Shown: positions 6,661 through 43,583 of the stretch, in pieces
Layout: the number at the start of each line of letters is the position of its first letter
Numbering within the stretch: position 1 is the stretch's first letter
Assembly: GCA_020723765.1 (NCBI GenBank)
Contig: DYIF01000013.1
Span: forward strand, 1 to 56,173
Source: Elusimicrobium minutum
GTDB lineage: Bacteria; Elusimicrobiota; Elusimicrobia; Elusimicrobiales; UBA9959
DNA: 56,173 nucleotides
Direction: 5' to 3'
Notes under the pieces: model-generated
Database searches by the model: none
What the model was told of the DNA's origin: nothing
Seen by the model: the letters and a program-made list of their open reading frames with translations, nothing else
Made by a program: the position numbers and the translations under genes

Positions 6661-7473
6661 TTATATTTTGATTCCTTCTATCGTTATTATAGTATGTTTA
6701 AAATTTATTTTTCTTTTAGATTTTGATAAGGCTTTTTTAGTTATCTCTATAAGCCCGAAACAACATGGGACTTCCATCGTTACTATTTCAAGCGATTTCA
6801 TTTTTGATTCTTCCAATAATATTTTTATTTTATCCTCATATATGTCAAGGCCCGAATCTAATTTCGGACAGGCTATTATTATTTTTTTGCCTTTTATAAA
6901 ATCTCTATGAAAATTTCCGTATGAAAATGCAGTACAATCCGCGGCGATGATTATGTCGGCGTTTTTGAAATAAGAAGCCGATGGGTTTATTAAATGGAAC
7001 TGAATAGGCCATTGAGAAAGTTCGGATTTTATTTTACCTTTTATTTTTTCGTTTTTTTCGTTCTTTTTTATTTCCTTTGGTTTTGAATGAGGGCAGCCGA
7101 AAGGAATTTCTTCAATTTCTTGTTTTTTTATTTCAATCTTTTGTTTTTTAAGGTATTTTAAGGCCTGGTTGTAATATTCTGTTTGACCGTGTTCTTTTAG
7201 ATGTTTTAGATGCGCTATTATTGTATCTTTTCCGTATCCGATTATATTTTTTAAAGATTCTATTTCGTCGTAAGGTTTTGCATCCCTTTCTTCTATTATT
7301 ATCGCTCCTTGAGGGCATTCTTTTATGCATGCTCCAAGCCCATCGCAGAAGACTTCGTTTATCAGTCTCGCTTTGCCGTTTATCATTTTTATCGCCCCTT
7401 CAGCGCAAGAATTAGCGCATATCCCGCAACCCGTACATTTTTCTTCTATTATCTTTATTATTTTCCTTTTCAT
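6661..7473 (-). CDS. Ferredoxin-domain protein linked to hcp (two iron-sulfur motifs)
   Basis: The N-terminus has a full 4Fe-4S motif (CTGCGICANSCAEG) and a second motif, CDGLGACIKECPQG, in which the second Cys is replaced, so the second cluster may be 3Fe-4S or have another ligand. The remaining ~200 residues contain further Cys (a Cys-Pro-His after EIPFG, AADCTAF, IIACPKLDS, VPCCFGL) and look like a distinct globular domain. Such proteins are often found beside hybrid cluster protein genes and probably carry electrons for redox enzymes; the partner here would be Hcp (inference). It is the last gene of the minus-strand operon, with its start overlapping the Rrf2 stop by one base (TAATG). Confidence 0.75.
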   Translation of the reverse strand: MKRKIIKIIEEKCTGCGICANSCAEGAIKMINGKARLINEVFCDGLGACIKECPQGAIIIEERDAKPYDEIESLKNIIGYGKDTIIAHLKHLKEHGQTEYYNQALKYLKKQKIEIKKQEIEEIPFGCPHSKPKEIKKNEKNEKIKGKIKSELSQWPIQFHLINPSASYFKNADIIIAADCTAFSYGNFHRDFIKGKKIIIACPKLDSGLDIYEDKIKILLEESKMKSLEIVTMEVPCCFGLIEITKKALSKSKRKINFKHTIITIEGIKI

Positions 7474-38585: not shown

Positions 38586-38674
38586 ATCTTAATTATCTTA
38601 AAAAAAATTCTTTTAATTCTTTTGATTCCCAATATCTAATTAAAACTTATTTATAAATTGTGTATAATTTAAAT

Positions 38675-38760
38675 GAAGGGGTGCTGGTTTGGTACCGGCT
38701 GAGATAAGGATTAATCCTTAAACCCTTTGAACCTGAACCGGATAATACCGGCGGAGGGAT
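38675..38760 (+). ncRNA. TPP riboswitch (THI element) upstream of thiC
   Basis: All conserved TPP aptamer blocks are visible in order: GGGGTGC, GGCTGAGA, ACCCTTTGAACCTGA and CCGGATAATACCGGCGGAGGGA. Thiamine pyrophosphate binding should turn down thiC and thiD. A TATAAT lies at 38663-38668, just before it. Boundaries are approximate by a few bases. Confidence 0.97.
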
Positions 38761-38904
38761 ATGATGAAAATGAAATTAAGATTTAAAACAAATCTTTTAA
38801 ACATAAAATCTATAACCAAACATATTAAATCATCCCTCCGGAAAAACGGAGGCAAAGATGATTTATATATCTCAAAAAGATTTAAAACAAATATCCGTAA
38901 TTGA
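38761..38904 (+). CDS. Possible leader ORF between riboswitch and thiC
   Basis: A 47-codon frame starts ATGATG directly after GGAGGG, which is also the end of the aptamer, and ends at a TGA inside thiC in another frame. It has a basic composition (about 13 Lys/Arg). It could be a translated leader coupled to the riboswitch, or chance. A 15-base stretch, AGATTTAAAACAAAT, occurs at 38779-38793 in this frame and again at 38878-38892 in thiC, 99 bases apart. Confidence 0.3.
   Translation: MMKMKLRFKTNLLNIKSITKHIKSSLRKNGGKDDLYISKRFKTNIRN
38832..38852 (+). promoter_or_regulatory. Expression platform hairpin that hides the thiC Shine-Dalgarno
   Basis: CCTCCG (38835-38840), a GAAAAA loop and CGGAGG (38847-38852) form a hairpin that buries the thiC ribosome binding site five bases from its ATG. 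The 5' arm ATCCCTCCG (38832-38840) is also fully complementary over nine bases to CGGAGGGAT (38752-38760) at the end of the aptamer. This gives two exclusive pairings, the classic TPP translational switch; which one TPP favours is inferred. Confidence 0.75.
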
Positions 38905-40108
38905 AGAGAGAAGCGTAGATTTTATAAAAAAAGAATTAAATTCTCAAAGAGCTTCAGTTCTTAAAAACATAAAAAGGAAAATAAATCCCGTTATAGTCGG
39001 AAGAAATTTTAAATGCAAATATAACTTGAATCTGGGAATAAGCCCTCAAAAATCGGATTTAAAAAACGAAATAAAAAAACTGGAAATCGCCGTTAGAAAC
39101 GGCGCGGATACCGTTATGGACCTGTCGGTCGGAACTGGCAGAGACGATACAAGGAAAAAACTTTTGGAGTTGTCCGCGGTTCCTTTCGGGACTGTTCCGA
39201 TTTATACGATGATAGATAGTGAAAAAGATATAAAAAAATTATCTAAAAATTTGATTCTGGACACCATAGAAAAACAATGCGAAGAAGGCGTAGATTTTAT
39301 GACGATTCACGCCGGGCTTTTAAGAAAGAGTATCGTATATATTAAAAACAGGCTTTCCGGAGTTGTTTCAAGAGGGGGATCTTTGATACTCAGATATATG
39401 AGCTTAACCGGCAAAGAAAATCCTTTTTACGAGTATTACGACGAAATAATAAAAATATTGAAAAAATATAATGTAACGATAAGCATAGGAGACGGTCTCA
39501 GGCCCGGTTCCATATACGATTCGACCGATAAAGCTCAGATTTCTGAATTAAAAGTAATAGGAGAGCTTAACAGATATTCCAGAGAAAAAGGAGTTTATAC
39601 GATGATAGAAGGTCCCGGACATGTTCCGATAAGTCAAATAGAAAAAAATGTTAAGCTTGCCATGGATTACTGCGACGACGCTCCGCTATATTTTTTAGGT
39701 CCGCTTGTGACTGATATAGCGTTGGGGTACGACCATATTAACGGCGCCATAGGCGGCGCTATGGCCGGGTATTTCGGAGTTTCTCTTTTATGCGCGGTCG
39801 GTCCGAGCGAGCATATAGGGCTTCCGACTATAGAAGATATAAACGAAGAATGTGTGGTTTTTAATCTCGTAAAGCACGCGGTAAATATCTCTAAAGGCTT
39901 TAAAAAAAATATCGAAAGGGATAACAAAATGTCTAAAGCGAGAAAAGATTTTAGATGGGAGGATCAGTTTAAACTTTCCATAAATCCCGAATACGCCAGA
40001 AAAAGATTTTGCGAGTTAAATAATTCGAAGGGGAATTATTGTTCTATGTGCGGTGAAGGGTTTTGCGCCATGAAAAATAGCAAGAAAGCGTTATCGGAGG
40101 TAAAATGA
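38858..40108 (+). CDS. thiC: Phosphomethylpyrimidine synthase ThiC
   Basis: A 416-residue radical-SAM-type enzyme that turns AIR into HMP-P for thiamine. The iron-sulfur motif CSMCGEGFC is near the C-terminus, and conserved blocks include MDLSVGTGRDDTR, MTIHAGLLRKS, SIGDGLRPGSIYDSTD, MIEGPGHVPI, PLVTDIALGYDHINGAIGG and GPSEHIGLP. The start is the ATG at 38858 with CGGAGG upstream. It sits behind a TPP riboswitch and overlaps thiD by four bases (ATGA). Its substrate AIR is the product of PurM, encoded 10 kb away in this window. Confidence 0.97.
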   Translation: MIYISQKDLKQISVIEERSVDFIKKELNSQRASVLKNIKRKINPVIVGRNFKCKYNLNLGISPQKSDLKNEIKKLEIAVRNGADTVMDLSVGTGRDDTRKKLLELSAVPFGTVPIYTMIDSEKDIKKLSKNLILDTIEKQCEEGVDFMTIHAGLLRKSIVYIKNRLSGVVSRGGSLILRYMSLTGKENPFYEYYDEIIKILKKYNVTISIGDGLRPGSIYDSTDKAQISELKVIGELNRYSREKGVYTMIEGPGHVPISQIEKNVKLAMDYCDDAPLYFLGPLVTDIALGYDHINGAIGGAMAGYFGVSLLCAVGPSEHIGLPTIEDINEECVVFNLVKHAVNISKGFKKNIERDNKMSKARKDFRWEDQFKLSINPEYARKRFCELNNSKGNYCSMCGEGFCAMKNSKKALSEVK

Positions 40109-40887
40109 AAATGCCGATAGCTTTGTCTATAGCGGGGGTGGATCCCTCCGGCGGGGCGGGAATTTTAGCCGATATTAAAACTTTTTCGGCTTTTAGGGTT
40201 TACGGTATGGGGGTGATAACGGCGCTTACTTCTCAAAATACTTACGAGGTTAACGGCATAAAAACAGCCGGCAGGAAATTTTTTCAAAAACAGATAAACA
40301 CCGTTTTGAAAGACATAAAACCCGATTCGGTTAAAACCGGCATGATACCTGATATCGTCACCGCAGATGTCATATACGAAAGCCTAATGGAACATAAGCT
40401 AAATAATCTGGTCATAGATCCGGTTATGATATCAAAACAGGGCGCTTTTCTTTCCGCTAAATCGACAATAAACTTTATTATAAAAAAACTTTTTCCTCTT
40501 TCTTTGATAGTAACGCCTAATATTCCCGAGGCTTCTTATATAGCGGATATGAAAATAAGGAATTTAGAAGATATTGTCTCGGTCTGTAAAAAGATATTCG
40601 CGTTGGGACCTAAAAACGTTCTTTTAAAAGGGGGGCATATGGAAGGGGATGTTTGTATTGACGTTTTGTTTGACGGCAAAAAAATATTTTATTTCAAAAA
40701 CAGAAGAATAAATACAAAAAACACCCACGGCACCGGATGTACGCTTTCCGCCGCAATATGCGCAAATCTTTCAAAAGGGAAAAAGGTTCTCGATTCGGTG
40801 GAAATCGCTATAAATTACGTAAACAAGGCTATAAAAAAATCGCTGGATATAGGTAAAGGAAACGGGCCGTTAAATCATATGCCATAA
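40105..40887 (+). CDS. thiD: Hydroxymethylpyrimidine (phosphate) kinase ThiD
   Basis: A 260-residue ribokinase-fold enzyme with GVDPSGGAGILADIKTF at the start, DPVMISKQGAFL, and the anion hole THGTGCTLSAAI near the C-terminus. It phosphorylates HMP and HMP-P to HMP-PP. It is translationally coupled to thiC. There is no thiE, thiG or tenA in the window, so thiazole synthesis and coupling are encoded elsewhere or thiazole is salvaged. A convergent sRNA/terminator region follows four bases later. Confidence 0.95.
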   Translation: MKMPIALSIAGVDPSGGAGILADIKTFSAFRVYGMGVITALTSQNTYEVNGIKTAGRKFFQKQINTVLKDIKPDSVKTGMIPDIVTADVIYESLMEHKLNNLVIDPVMISKQGAFLSAKSTINFIIKKLFPLSLIVTPNIPEASYIADMKIRNLEDIVSVCKKIFALGPKNVLLKGGHMEGDVCIDVLFDGKKIFYFKNRRINTKNTHGTGCTLSAAICANLSKGKKVLDSVEIAINYVNKAIKKSLDIGKGNGPLNHMP

Positions 40888-40890
40888 ATG

Positions 40891-41028
40891 AAAAAGGGAG
40901 TACGAAAAGCCACCACCTTCCCTCACACTTTTCGCACTCCCTTTAAATGCACCCGTTCCTACCCTCTCCATCCGCCTTCTAAATAAGACAACTCCGCAAA
41001 GCCTTATGCCTACCCAAAGACTTTGCTT
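40891..41028 (-). ncRNA. Candidate small RNA gene convergent with thiD, downstream of nrdJ
   Basis: A minus-strand promoter at 41034-41062 would start a transcript near 41027, and a strong intrinsic terminator ends it at about 40891, giving an RNA of about 137 bases. The 5' part can fold GCAAAGUC / GGCUUUGC (8 bp, one G-U pair). The middle is unpaired and purine-rich, with many GGA and AGGG motifs. No open frame with a ribosome binding site is seen. It does not look like 6S, SRP, RNase P or tmRNA. It might instead be only the end of the nrdJ mRNA. Confidence 0.45.
40893..40944 (-). terminator. Intrinsic terminator between thiD and nrdJ
   Basis: Arms AAAGGGAGTACGAAAAG (40893-40909) and CTTTTCGCACTCCCTTT (40928-40944) pair over 17 bases. 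The single differing position is a G-U wobble in the minus-strand RNA but an A-C mismatch in the plus-strand RNA, and the minus-strand stem runs straight into TTTTT, so it terminates minus-strand transcripts (nrdJ and the candidate sRNA). It may help stop thiD transcription too. The loop is G-rich in the minus-strand RNA. Confidence 0.85.
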
Positions 41029-41033
41029 TTTAT

Positions 41034-41062
41034 ATGTTAGCAGAAAACTATTGACTTGTCAA
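41034..41062 (-). promoter_or_regulatory. Promoter for the candidate sRNA
   Basis: On the minus strand TTGACA (plus 41057-41062), a 17-base spacer, then an extended -10 TG-C-TAACAT (hexamer plus 41034-41039). It is also part of a small palindrome, TGTCAAG-A-CTTGACA (41057-41071). It lies after the nrdJ stop codon and points away from nrdJ. Confidence 0.5.
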
Positions 41063-41102
41063 GACTTGACAGGCCATTAAGTAACAAAAGTTTCTTTCAG
41101 GT

Positions 41103-43583
41103 TTACGAGCACTCGGAATATCCGCAGTCATGACATGTCGGCCCGGAGCATCCCGACTCAAAGCTTATATTTGATGAATAACATTTAGGGCAGTACTGGG
41201 TTTTTGATGCTTCCCATAACTGAAGCTTTTGGCCGTTGATATCTTCGTCGGATATCATTTTTCTTTTCTTAAGATGGTTTCTAAGGGCTATGGCTATGGC
41301 GTGTGGTATGGAGTTTACTCTGTTTTCTCCAAAGCCGAAAGGCTTATCCCCTTTAATCGAGTTTAAGTGTTTTAATATTCTTATCGGGTCGCCGTTATTT
41401 TCGAGATATTTCGAAAGGAGAATTCCCACAAGCGCCGTAAGCCCGCTAATTTCGGTACCGAGCGGCGGAAGGTTTGTAAAAACCTGAAAAGGCCCGTTTT
41501 CTTCGGTGAAATTTATGTGTATGTGGAGTGGGCCGTATCCGGTTTGTATCTGGTAATACTCCGAAGATACGCCGAATGTGGTCGGTTTTTTCTTTTTCGG
41601 TTTGTCTGTTTTAGCGTTAATATTCAGAACCTGAAAATCTTTACATCCATCTCTATATACCGTTATCCCTTTGCAGCCCAATTTATAAGAAAGAAAGTAT
41701 GAATTTTTTACGTCTTCCACTTTTGCGGAGTTTGGCATATTTATCGTTTTTGATACCGCATTGTCCACATATTCCTGAAAAGCGGCCTGGGCTTTTATGT
41801 GGTATTCGTAAGTTACATCGTGAGCGGTTGGAAAGATATCCTGTATTTTTTTGGGTATGGCGTCTATTCCTCTTACCGCTTTATGATTTTCGTCTATCTT
41901 TTTCCATAATTCTTCTTTTGTTAAACCGAAATAATTATACTCTTCGGCTATGGATTTGAAAAGCGGATTTATTTCGTAAAATGAATCTTTCAAATCGGGG
42001 GTTTTACCGTTTTTAATAGCCTCTAAAGCCTTTGCTGTGTATCTTACGTAAGCTATGGCAAAAAAAGGTTCTATTCCGCTTCCCTGAAGACCGGCGGCTA
42101 TGGATATCGTTCCCGTGGGGGCTATGGTGGTTCTGGATGCGTTTCTTAAATATCCAGATTTTCCCCTGAAGTATCTGGAATCTTTATCGTATATAGATCC
42201 CTTCCAGTTATAAAAACATCCTCTTTCCTGGGCCAATTTTTCGGATGCCTCGAAAGCTTTTTCCTGTACGAATTTCATAACTTCTTTGGCTTTTTTTATC
42301 CCTTCTTCCGAGTCGTATCTCACTCCCAATTTTACGCAGGTTTCGGCCCATCCCATTACTCCAAGACCTATTTTTCTATTGGATTTCGCCATCTGCTCTA
42401 TTTCCGGCAACGGATAGTTATTTATTTCTATTACGTTGTCTAAAAATCTAACGGCGTTATAAACCGTTTTTTCAAGCCTATCCCAGTTTATTTTACCTTT
42501 CATAATCTCGCCTTCTACGAACTTGGAAAGGTTTATTGAGCCTAAATTGCAGGCTTCCCAGCCCAAAAGCGGCTGTTCGCCGCAAGGATTTGTGGCTTCT
42601 ATCTCGCCTATATGGGGGGTTGGGTTTGAGTTGGTGTTGTTTATCCTTTCGATAAATATTATGCCTGGGTCTCCGGTAGCCCATGCGGATTCCACCAGTT
42701 TGTTGAAAAGTTTTTTTGCGTTTAATTTGGATACCACTTCTTTTGTCCTCGGGTTTAATAACTCTATATCTTCGTTGGCTTCGACCGCCTTCATAAATTT
42801 ATCGTCTATCGCTACAGACAGATTAAAATTTTCCATTACTCCCGGTTTGGATTTTAATGTTATGAATTCTTCTATTTCAGGGTGCCAGTAAGGAAGGATT
42901 CCCATATTTGCGCCGCGTCTTGTCCCGCCCTGTTTTACCACATCGGTCATTTTGTCGAATAACTGCATAAAGGATAACGCCCCGGATGCCACGCCGTTCG
43001 TTTTTTTGACAACATCCCCTTTCGGCCTTAATCTTGCGAAAGAAAACCCCGTTCCTCCTCCGGATTTTTGTATTATGCTTTGAGCGGAAAGGGCTTTGGA
43101 TATTCCTTCCATAGAGTCTTCCACAGGTATTACATAGCATGCCGAGAGTTGCTGGAGGTCTCTGCCGGCGTTCATAAGAGTGGGGGAGTTTGGCAAAAAC
43201 TCGAATTTTGCCATCATATTATAGAAATCCATGGTTTTAGAATCGACCTTTTCTTTTAAATTAGGATTTTTTTCGTATGCGTTTAATATGTTTTTTACGA
43301 ACTTCTGAAAATTTTCTTCTCTTTTGGCCGATTCGTATAGATTTTTATGAAGAAGGAGAAGTCTTGAACTTACGCCGTTATAATCGTATTTTATTATTTC
43401 GTAGTTAATATCTTTTAAATAATCTTCAATGTTATTTTCGAAAAGTATTTCGCTTAAAGCTATATTGAAAGAAACCCTGTAAAAAAGGTCTTCTACGGTT
43501 TTATCGCCTCTAAGGTATTTGTCTTTTATCACTTTTTCCTGGTTTGGTGTGAGATATACTTTTTCTAAGGTCATAGCGCTCAT
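41103..43583 (-). CDS. nrdJ: Adenosylcobalamin-dependent ribonucleotide reductase (class II)
   Basis: An 826-residue enzyme. Class II features: LSACYVIPVEDSMEGI, TNPCGEQPLLGWEACNLGSINLS, the SGIEPFFAIAY loop region, and a C-terminal Cys-rich tail, CPKCYSSNISFESGCSGPTC, used as the redox shuttle. It makes deoxynucleotides with B12 and needs no oxygen, fitting an anaerobe. The start at 43583 has AAGGAG upstream. No cobalamin riboswitch is visible in the roughly 50-base leader. With dut and pyrE/pyrF in the same window, pyrimidine and DNA precursor genes are well represented. Confidence 0.96.
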   Translation of the reverse strand: MSAMTLEKVYLTPNQEKVIKDKYLRGDKTVEDLFYRVSFNIALSEILFENNIEDYLKDINYEIIKYDYNGVSSRLLLLHKNLYESAKREENFQKFVKNILNAYEKNPNLKEKVDSKTMDFYNMMAKFEFLPNSPTLMNAGRDLQQLSACYVIPVEDSMEGISKALSAQSIIQKSGGGTGFSFARLRPKGDVVKKTNGVASGALSFMQLFDKMTDVVKQGGTRRGANMGILPYWHPEIEEFITLKSKPGVMENFNLSVAIDDKFMKAVEANEDIELLNPRTKEVVSKLNAKKLFNKLVESAWATGDPGIIFIERINNTNSNPTPHIGEIEATNPCGEQPLLGWEACNLGSINLSKFVEGEIMKGKINWDRLEKTVYNAVRFLDNVIEINNYPLPEIEQMAKSNRKIGLGVMGWAETCVKLGVRYDSEEGIKKAKEVMKFVQEKAFEASEKLAQERGCFYNWKGSIYDKDSRYFRGKSGYLRNASRTTIAPTGTISIAAGLQGSGIEPFFAIAYVRYTAKALEAIKNGKTPDLKDSFYEINPLFKSIAEEYNYFGLTKEELWKKIDENHKAVRGIDAIPKKIQDIFPTAHDVTYEYHIKAQAAFQEYVDNAVSKTINMPNSAKVEDVKNSYFLSYKLGCKGITVYRDGCKDFQVLNINAKTDKPKKKKPTTFGVSSEYYQIQTGYGPLHIHINFTEENGPFQVFTNLPPLGTEISGLTALVGILLSKYLENNGDPIRILKHLNSIKGDKPFGFGENRVNSIPHAIAIALRNHLKKRKMISDEDINGQKLQLWEASKTQYCPKCYSSNISFESGCSGPTCHDCGYSECS

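Follow-up and report, generated by a model that had tools for sequence, protein, structure and literature searches.

A predicted purine-rich small RNA behind nrdJ in Elusimicrobium minutum: an undescribed RNA family and a possible sponge for a C-rich small RNA

The small RNA gene between nrdJ and thiD

The locus lies in a window of 56,173 nt from Elusimicrobium minutum, which is the whole stretch of DNA that was analysed. Its minus strand carries a nrdJ-type ribonucleotide reductase gene (41103-43583; Pfam PF02867) and, behind it on the same strand, a predicted small RNA (sRNA) of about 140 nt (40888-41027), the start of which was placed from the -10 element and the end from the U-tail. The sRNA is convergent with thiD on the plus strand (40105-40887; Pfam PF08543 and open reading frame), whose stop codon abuts the predicted sRNA end. 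A TPP riboswitch (RF00059, 77.3 bits) is located ahead of thiC-thiD at 38667-38778 on the plus strand.

The promoter described in the original prediction is present on the minus strand and is kept across the family presented below. It consists of the -35 hexamer TTGACA (41057-41062) and, after a spacer of 17 nt, the extended -10 TGC-TAACAT (41034-41042; sequence and promoter scan), fits 10 of the 12 consensus positions and has TG before the -10. The hexamer forms part of the palindrome TTGACAAGTCAA (41051-41062, minus strand), common to the family promoters, and a second inverted repeat, TGTCAAGACTTGACA in plus-strand reading, overlaps it at 41057-41071. Promoter-like sites in the region are no commoner than in shuffled sequences (5 found versus 5.2 expected), so that the promoter taken by itself proves nothing, and it is its conservation that carries weight. 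Over the sRNA, the list of open reading frames of the window has none of 50 amino acids or more on the minus strand, which bears out the predicted lack of a coding sequence down to that size.

The RNA from 41027 to 40885 is predicted to fold at -47.4 kcal/mol (z = -4.0), as good a value being reached by none of 200 shuffles. The opposite strand folds well too (z = -5.0), because the terminator stem is a perfect inverted repeat. That terminator, the 3' hairpin at 40895-40942 (minus strand), pairs 40942-40928 with 40909-40895 in a 15-bp stem with an 18-nt loop, and is followed by UUUUUC, the U-tail occupying 40894-40890; since the loop exceeds the limit of 8 set in the terminator scan, the structure is missing from the list of that scan. 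The strong intrinsic terminator that had been proposed is hence there, and its stem is conserved by compensating changes. A folding 5' end, also proposed, is seen in the predicted fold of the window RNA as the hairpin GCAAAGUC..GGCUUUGC (40996-41026, minus strand), and is absent from that of the copy in the sister genome, so that it is to be regarded as a local feature. The purine-rich stretch stood up to counting: the 144-nt window RNA holds six GGA and three AGGG, a richness matched by 5 of 3114 window stretches of the same length (both strands, the sRNA itself included).

Four observations come from comparison: the promoter that belongs to the RNA is conserved, its 3' hairpin shows compensating changes, it contains no open reading frame of at least 50 amino acids, and it is located at two unrelated genomic places. 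Judged by these sequence comparisons, it is confirmed that 40888-41027 is a real free-standing sRNA gene, on the minus strand behind nrdJ, and the independent sRNA of the original prediction is backed by the promoter, the hairpin and the two locations.

The RNA family in related genomes

A first search with the region matched 8 of 61 genomes (the host genome included), in the promoter segment only; among these promoter matches the locus of genome G006 also carried a similar sRNA. The terminator used as a pattern was found exactly in 5 of the 59 genomes of the host's taxonomic family, and its backward control in none. By means of a covariance model of the 3' hairpin (R1) and reading of the hits, 18 members were recognized, in 18 of these 59 genomes and 10 of 13 genera. 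The R1 hits L033-L037 and L039 were left out as generic terminators with neither promoter nor motif, and L040-L045 and weaker hits lie outside the count of 18. A further hairpin model (R2), built without the window's genus, detects the window hairpin with 46.3 bits (E = 7e-12 in 116 kb) and the copy of the sister genome with 44.2 bits (E = 3e-11). When 247 genomes drawn evenly from the phylum were searched, 18 matched R2 at E <= 1e-5, 15 of which belong to the host's family; three weak matches outside it (G140, G257 and G156) show none of the three patterns sought, and neither promoter nor motif.

Counted from the predicted start up to where the hairpin model ends, members are 121-202 nt long. 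The promoter TTGACA[A/T]GTCAA occurs at 18 of 18 members, the window having TTGACAAGTCAA together with TGC-TAACAT, and in 17 of them the palindrome contains the -35. In the sister copy (L024) the palindrome lies just upstream of TTGACA, which stays 17 nt from TAAAAT, and this displacement suggests that the family palindrome may be an operator rather than a mere -35. In the 3' hairpin of 16 relatives, the 15 pairs give 240 standard pairs in 240 cells, with double changes at seven pairs, and this covariation is equalled by none of 500 shuffles; RNAalifold applied to all 18 members predicts this single helix. The conservation of promoter and stem in related genomes, which had been put forward as a check, was thereby found. 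The motif GAGGGAGGC is carried by the 16 members outside the window's genus and by neither of the two inside it (window and sister), and the window RNA is therefore a divergent member.

With Rfam 15 no family matched the sRNA, in agreement with the original reader not having recognized one: the window gives only the TPP riboswitch, elsewhere, and at E values up to 10 the sRNA region gives only miRNA models far below their cut-offs. Fifteen member loci likewise had no match on the sRNA. By these comparisons, the window sRNA belongs to an as yet undescribed family of RNAs in one Elusimicrobiota family.

The sRNA is a single-copy gene. In the 16 members outside the window's genus, contig ends permitting, the strand of the sRNA also carries a LysM/FecR-like gene before it or a TPR gene after it; at the locus of G011, Pfam gives the order Ham1, histidine kinase, LysM (FecR just under the cut-off), sRNA, TPR and Mur ligase. 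In the window's genus the sRNA lies behind thiC-thiD, convergent with them, and the upstream gene is nrdJ in the window or an HtrA-type protease in the sister genome (G001). Seven genomes have the LysM-TPR gap without the sRNA (L158-L162, L164 and L165). The two places and the gaps without it indicate that the sRNA forms a unit that can be separated from its neighbours and that, in the window, it is no gene leader.

A search for the palindromic promoter with at most two mismatches gave 38 sites in seven of eight genomes (backward control, 0), and further units lie behind such promoters. One is a membrane-protein operon (L002/L145, contig C12 of the host genome, promoter at 7134, plus strand; also L003, L010, L053 and others), eight proteins of which, taken from three loci, had no Pfam match that passed the cut-off. 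In the leader of this operon a hairpin CUUUG..CCUGAAC..GUGUCAGG..AAAG can be drawn that seemingly keeps pairing while changing, which makes it a candidate cis element. Another compact, RNA-like unit reads ..GAACTCCCCG..GGGGAAGCGAAAACCCGCC-A-rich loop-GCGGGTTTTCGC (L005, L052, L059, L070, L074, L084, L087, L106, L108, L114, L119 and L125); of fifteen loci scanned with Rfam, eight belonged to this or related classes, and these eight had no match. Long G/U-rich leaders with no obvious open reading frame follow the promoter at L054, L066 and L081, and c-di-GMP-I riboswitches (RF01051, 58 bits) at L006 (1373-1450, minus strand) and L056 (5537-5614, minus strand), so that the palindrome regulon may touch c-di-GMP controlled genes. 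Promoters with GTTGACAAGTCAAC precede short genes at L055, L073, L083, L118 and other Clostridia loci; these genes may, by their look, encode MarR-type regulators, and offer a lead to the type of regulator that would bind the palindrome.

A C-rich sRNA with complementary sequence

The complement of the motif UGAGGGAGGC, that is GCCTCCCTCA, was searched in 12 member genomes, the backward pattern serving as control and no control words being used. It is not enriched in bulk (82 hits versus 57 for the backward pattern), a result in which at least ten of the 82 hits are the C-rich sRNA described here. The 82 hits give 77 distinct contexts, 32 of them near some start codon, and by eye no gene recurs. 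Ten of the 12 genomes have a hit within the same element, a second sRNA. Its promoter, TTGACA..TGCTAAAAT, is followed by UGUCAGGGCUGCCUCCCUCACCCUACCCCCCAAAAAGGCAGCCCUGCCUUUUUUU, by a hairpin of 10 bp whose loop is C-rich, and by a U-tail. Over these ten genomes 49 of 63 alignment columns are invariant, and the only variable pair in the hairpin changes on both sides; 58 of 500 shuffles reach its covariation, the element being too invariant for this test. The covariance model of the C-rich sRNA (R3) recognized an eleventh copy, with one C fewer, in G013. Among 24 family genomes examined it finds the sRNA in 17, all seven examined of genus g4 being among these, and the overall count is 27 of 34 distinct family genomes, the host's included. 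The host copy, of about 58 nt, is on the minus strand of another contig (G000:C10:40461-40519; R3, E = 1.9e-14) and that of the sister genome is matched with E = 1.8e-11. In 16 genomes outside the family R3 gives generic matches at most (best E = 1e-3).

Rfam has no family for the C-rich sRNA. The nearest bacterial sRNA model, ErsA/Pseudomon-1 (RF01719), shares a terminator-type hairpin with a C-rich loop, and its score of 11.2 bits against a cut-off of 50 (E = 9.9) is at chance level. Upstream of the -35 there is an inverted repeat, TGTRAC-N4-GTYACA, which we take to be of the Crp/Fnr type. Its mean score is 9.52 of 12 over 25 loci, versus 7.04 +/- 0.15 for base shuffles, with 10-12 at 14 loci and only 6-8 at 11, a score that is a description and no independent test because the pattern was derived from the same loci. 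The repeat of the host genome scores 11 and is centred 16 nt before the -35.

Several other elements were seen around this sRNA. G018 has a second copy (L285, contig C50), and degraded repeats lie beside the copy of G005 (L238/L243, contig C95). Just upstream of the gene in G009 (contig C10), after a response-regulator-like frame, L279 carries at about 1010-1110 on the plus strand GGGTGAGGGAGGC, a 13-nt complement of the C-rich sRNA, followed by a terminator-like hairpin, and could be a second sponge. L311 (G019:C9:33931-34019, minus strand) is a weak R3 match (E = 0.003) that starts with TGTCAGGG and shows a loop rich in C, CTCCTCCCTAACCCAAACCCCC, as well as a U-tail; it is perhaps a diverged C-rich sRNA, G019 being counted here as lacking one.

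Outside the window's genus, 14 genomes have yielded both RNAs, and in every one of these the motif of the purine-rich RNA is the exact complement, over 9-10 nt, of GCC plus the C-rich loop, a match equalled by 0-24 of 1000 dinucleotide shuffles. The window copy is without UGAGGGAGGC, and its best single match is not significant, being reached by 233 of 1000 shuffles (551 of 1000 for the sister genome). It has instead three separate exact sites of 7-8 nt. GGGUAGG occurs in the loop of the 5' hairpin, facing part of the C-rich loop (41015-41009; unpaired probability 0.86), and again at 40958-40964 (0.59), and GUGAGGGA, the exact complement of UCCCUCAC, is found in the terminator loop (40919-40926; 0.91), all on the minus strand; two of the three fall in predicted loops. 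This number of sites is reached by 41 of 2000 shuffles and the same coverage by 33 of 2000, and 2 of 3114 window stretches do as well (the scan includes the sRNA itself). With 6-nt words, the number of sites is reached by 198 and the coverage by 36 of 2000 shuffles. Five sites, of 6-7 nt, were counted for the sister genome (85 of 2000 shuffles; 322 of 2000 with 7-nt words). The Shine-Dalgarno mimicry that had been suggested is partly supported, in the narrower form of the motif GAGGGAGGC, which is present in 16 of 16 relatives outside the genus and resembles a Shine-Dalgarno sequence; in the window copy it comes down to shorter sites.

Three further measures speak against pairing. Duplex energies are no better than those of shuffles (equalled by 18 to 310 of 500 over 16 genomes), fold predictions for the 16 canonical members give the motif no particular openness (0.31 versus 0.41), and the two RNAs show no changes that compensate each other. 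In favour of pairing, the presence of the two RNAs is associated outside genus g4: 16 genomes have both, two the purine-rich one only, four the C-rich one only and five neither (p = 0.023, with neither kinship nor incomplete assemblies corrected for). Against it, the C-rich sRNA was not found in the member genomes G006 and G010, and genus g4, with the C-rich sRNA in all seven genomes examined, has no accepted member of the purine-rich family.

Function of the RNA pair and comparison with known systems

The reading preferred here, for which we consider the chances evenly balanced, is that of a free-standing sRNA acting in trans: the purine-rich RNA would work as a sponge for the C-rich sRNA. 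In this mechanism, in which we infer transcription, pairing, titration, targets and the regulators of both RNAs from their sequences, the purine-rich, Shine-Dalgarno-like segments would pair with the CCUCC-bearing loop of the C-rich sRNA. The occupied loop would keep the C-rich sRNA off its mRNA targets and thus free them, and the stability of the C-rich sRNA may change as well. The sponge would be set by the regulator of the TTGACAAGTCAA palindrome and the C-rich sRNA by a regulator presumably of the Crp/Fnr type. Such pairing would need neither Hfq nor CsrA, both of which were not found in the host genome. Hfq was absent from all 37 genomes searched, the host's included, with 5 of 14 control genomes positive, and the candidate class of Hfq-dependent trans-acting sRNAs was rejected on this ground.

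An independent sRNA of the same family could instead bind mainly mRNAs, or a protein other than CsrA, its match with the C-rich sRNA being a by-product of both RNAs being tuned to Shine-Dalgarno-like sequence. The status of sRNA and of family holds equally well under this alternative, the duplex energies with the C-rich sRNA that do not surpass shuffles suit it, and it would have room for a 3' hairpin whose sequence is conserved beyond the needs of a terminator and whose loop keeps AGGCGCAA in many members, which a sponge leaves unexplained. However, inspection by eye of the 77 contexts from 12 genomes gave no recurring mRNA site for the motif, the sole recurring element being the C-rich sRNA, and we regard this alternative as less probable than the sponge. 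It is improbable that the RNA is a 3'-UTR product, that is, read-through from nrdJ or another upstream gene that is processed or merely terminated and has no primary start of its own. An upstream gene does lie on the same strand in the window and in the neighbourhoods read, and the scan (loop limit 8) listed no terminator-like site between nrdJ and the sRNA promoter; yet the 12-nt palindrome promoter is kept at 18 of 18 members despite upstream genes as different as nrdJ, HtrA-type and LysM/FecR-like genes. The position upstream of a same-strand TPR gene in other genera would also agree with a cis leader bearing an attenuator for the following gene, a reading rendered very improbable by the convergent orientation of thiD beyond the terminator in the window and G001, and by the seven genomes with a TPR gene behind LysM and no sRNA. 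Finally, the CsrA-binding RNA of the original prediction, a CsrA/RsmA-titrating RNA of the CsrB type, would fit the six GGA within 144 nt, but it can practically be dismissed, since a search of 41 genomes for csrA (PF02599) gave a single positive one, other than the host genome, which is 98.06% complete.

Under the sponge reading, a two-RNA circuit might extend across the whole Elusimicrobiota family, which is without detectable Hfq and almost without CsrA. It would comprise a C-rich, anti-Shine-Dalgarno-like hairpin sRNA, putatively under Crp/Fnr-type control, and a dedicated Shine-Dalgarno-mimicking sponge under a palindrome-binding regulator that would also drive other non-coding RNAs. This circuit, in which the RosA/RoxS and RsaI/RsaE logic would have been invented independently beyond the Firmicutes, is proposed tentatively, at somewhat less than even confidence. 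Both RNA families look new, while the sRNA sponge is a kind already known; no sRNA of Elusimicrobiota was apparent in Rfam or in the literature as judged from titles and the beginnings of abstracts. Two linked RNA families, one of them almost unchanged across genera, would provide a first candidate sRNA network for a mostly uncultured phylum and would allow sRNA regulation to be tested where Hfq and CsrA are missing.

CsrB/RsmZ-type RNAs, which titrate CsrA, are purine-rich, with repeated GGA and a strong terminator. The sRNA described here resembles them in these three traits and differs in that CsrA was not detected in its host and that it has no match in Rfam. The likeness to RosA of Bacillus subtilis is one of design. 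RosA is a stand-alone RNA with G-rich regions that titrates the C-rich sRNAs RoxS and FsrA, its pairing and effect having been demonstrated by experiment; the work was set in a species with no known RNA hub protein such as Hfq, and RosA and its partner answer to different transcription regulators (PMC8216469). The present RNA is likewise a stand-alone sRNA with G-rich segments facing a C-rich region of another sRNA, and the regulators of sponge and partner, here putative ones, would also differ. It belongs to another phylum and is likened to RosA by design and not by sequence, with predicted pairing and effect, and the sRNA it would pair with consists of one hairpin, about 58 nt long, that hardly varies between genera. 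RsaI (RsaOG) of Staphylococcus aureus, likened by description only, also stands alone and binds C-rich sRNAs through two G-rich regions; a C-rich region for mRNAs is described for it in addition (PMC8216469). If the sponge reading is true, the combination of a C-rich sRNA with a G-rich sponge would have arisen more than once.
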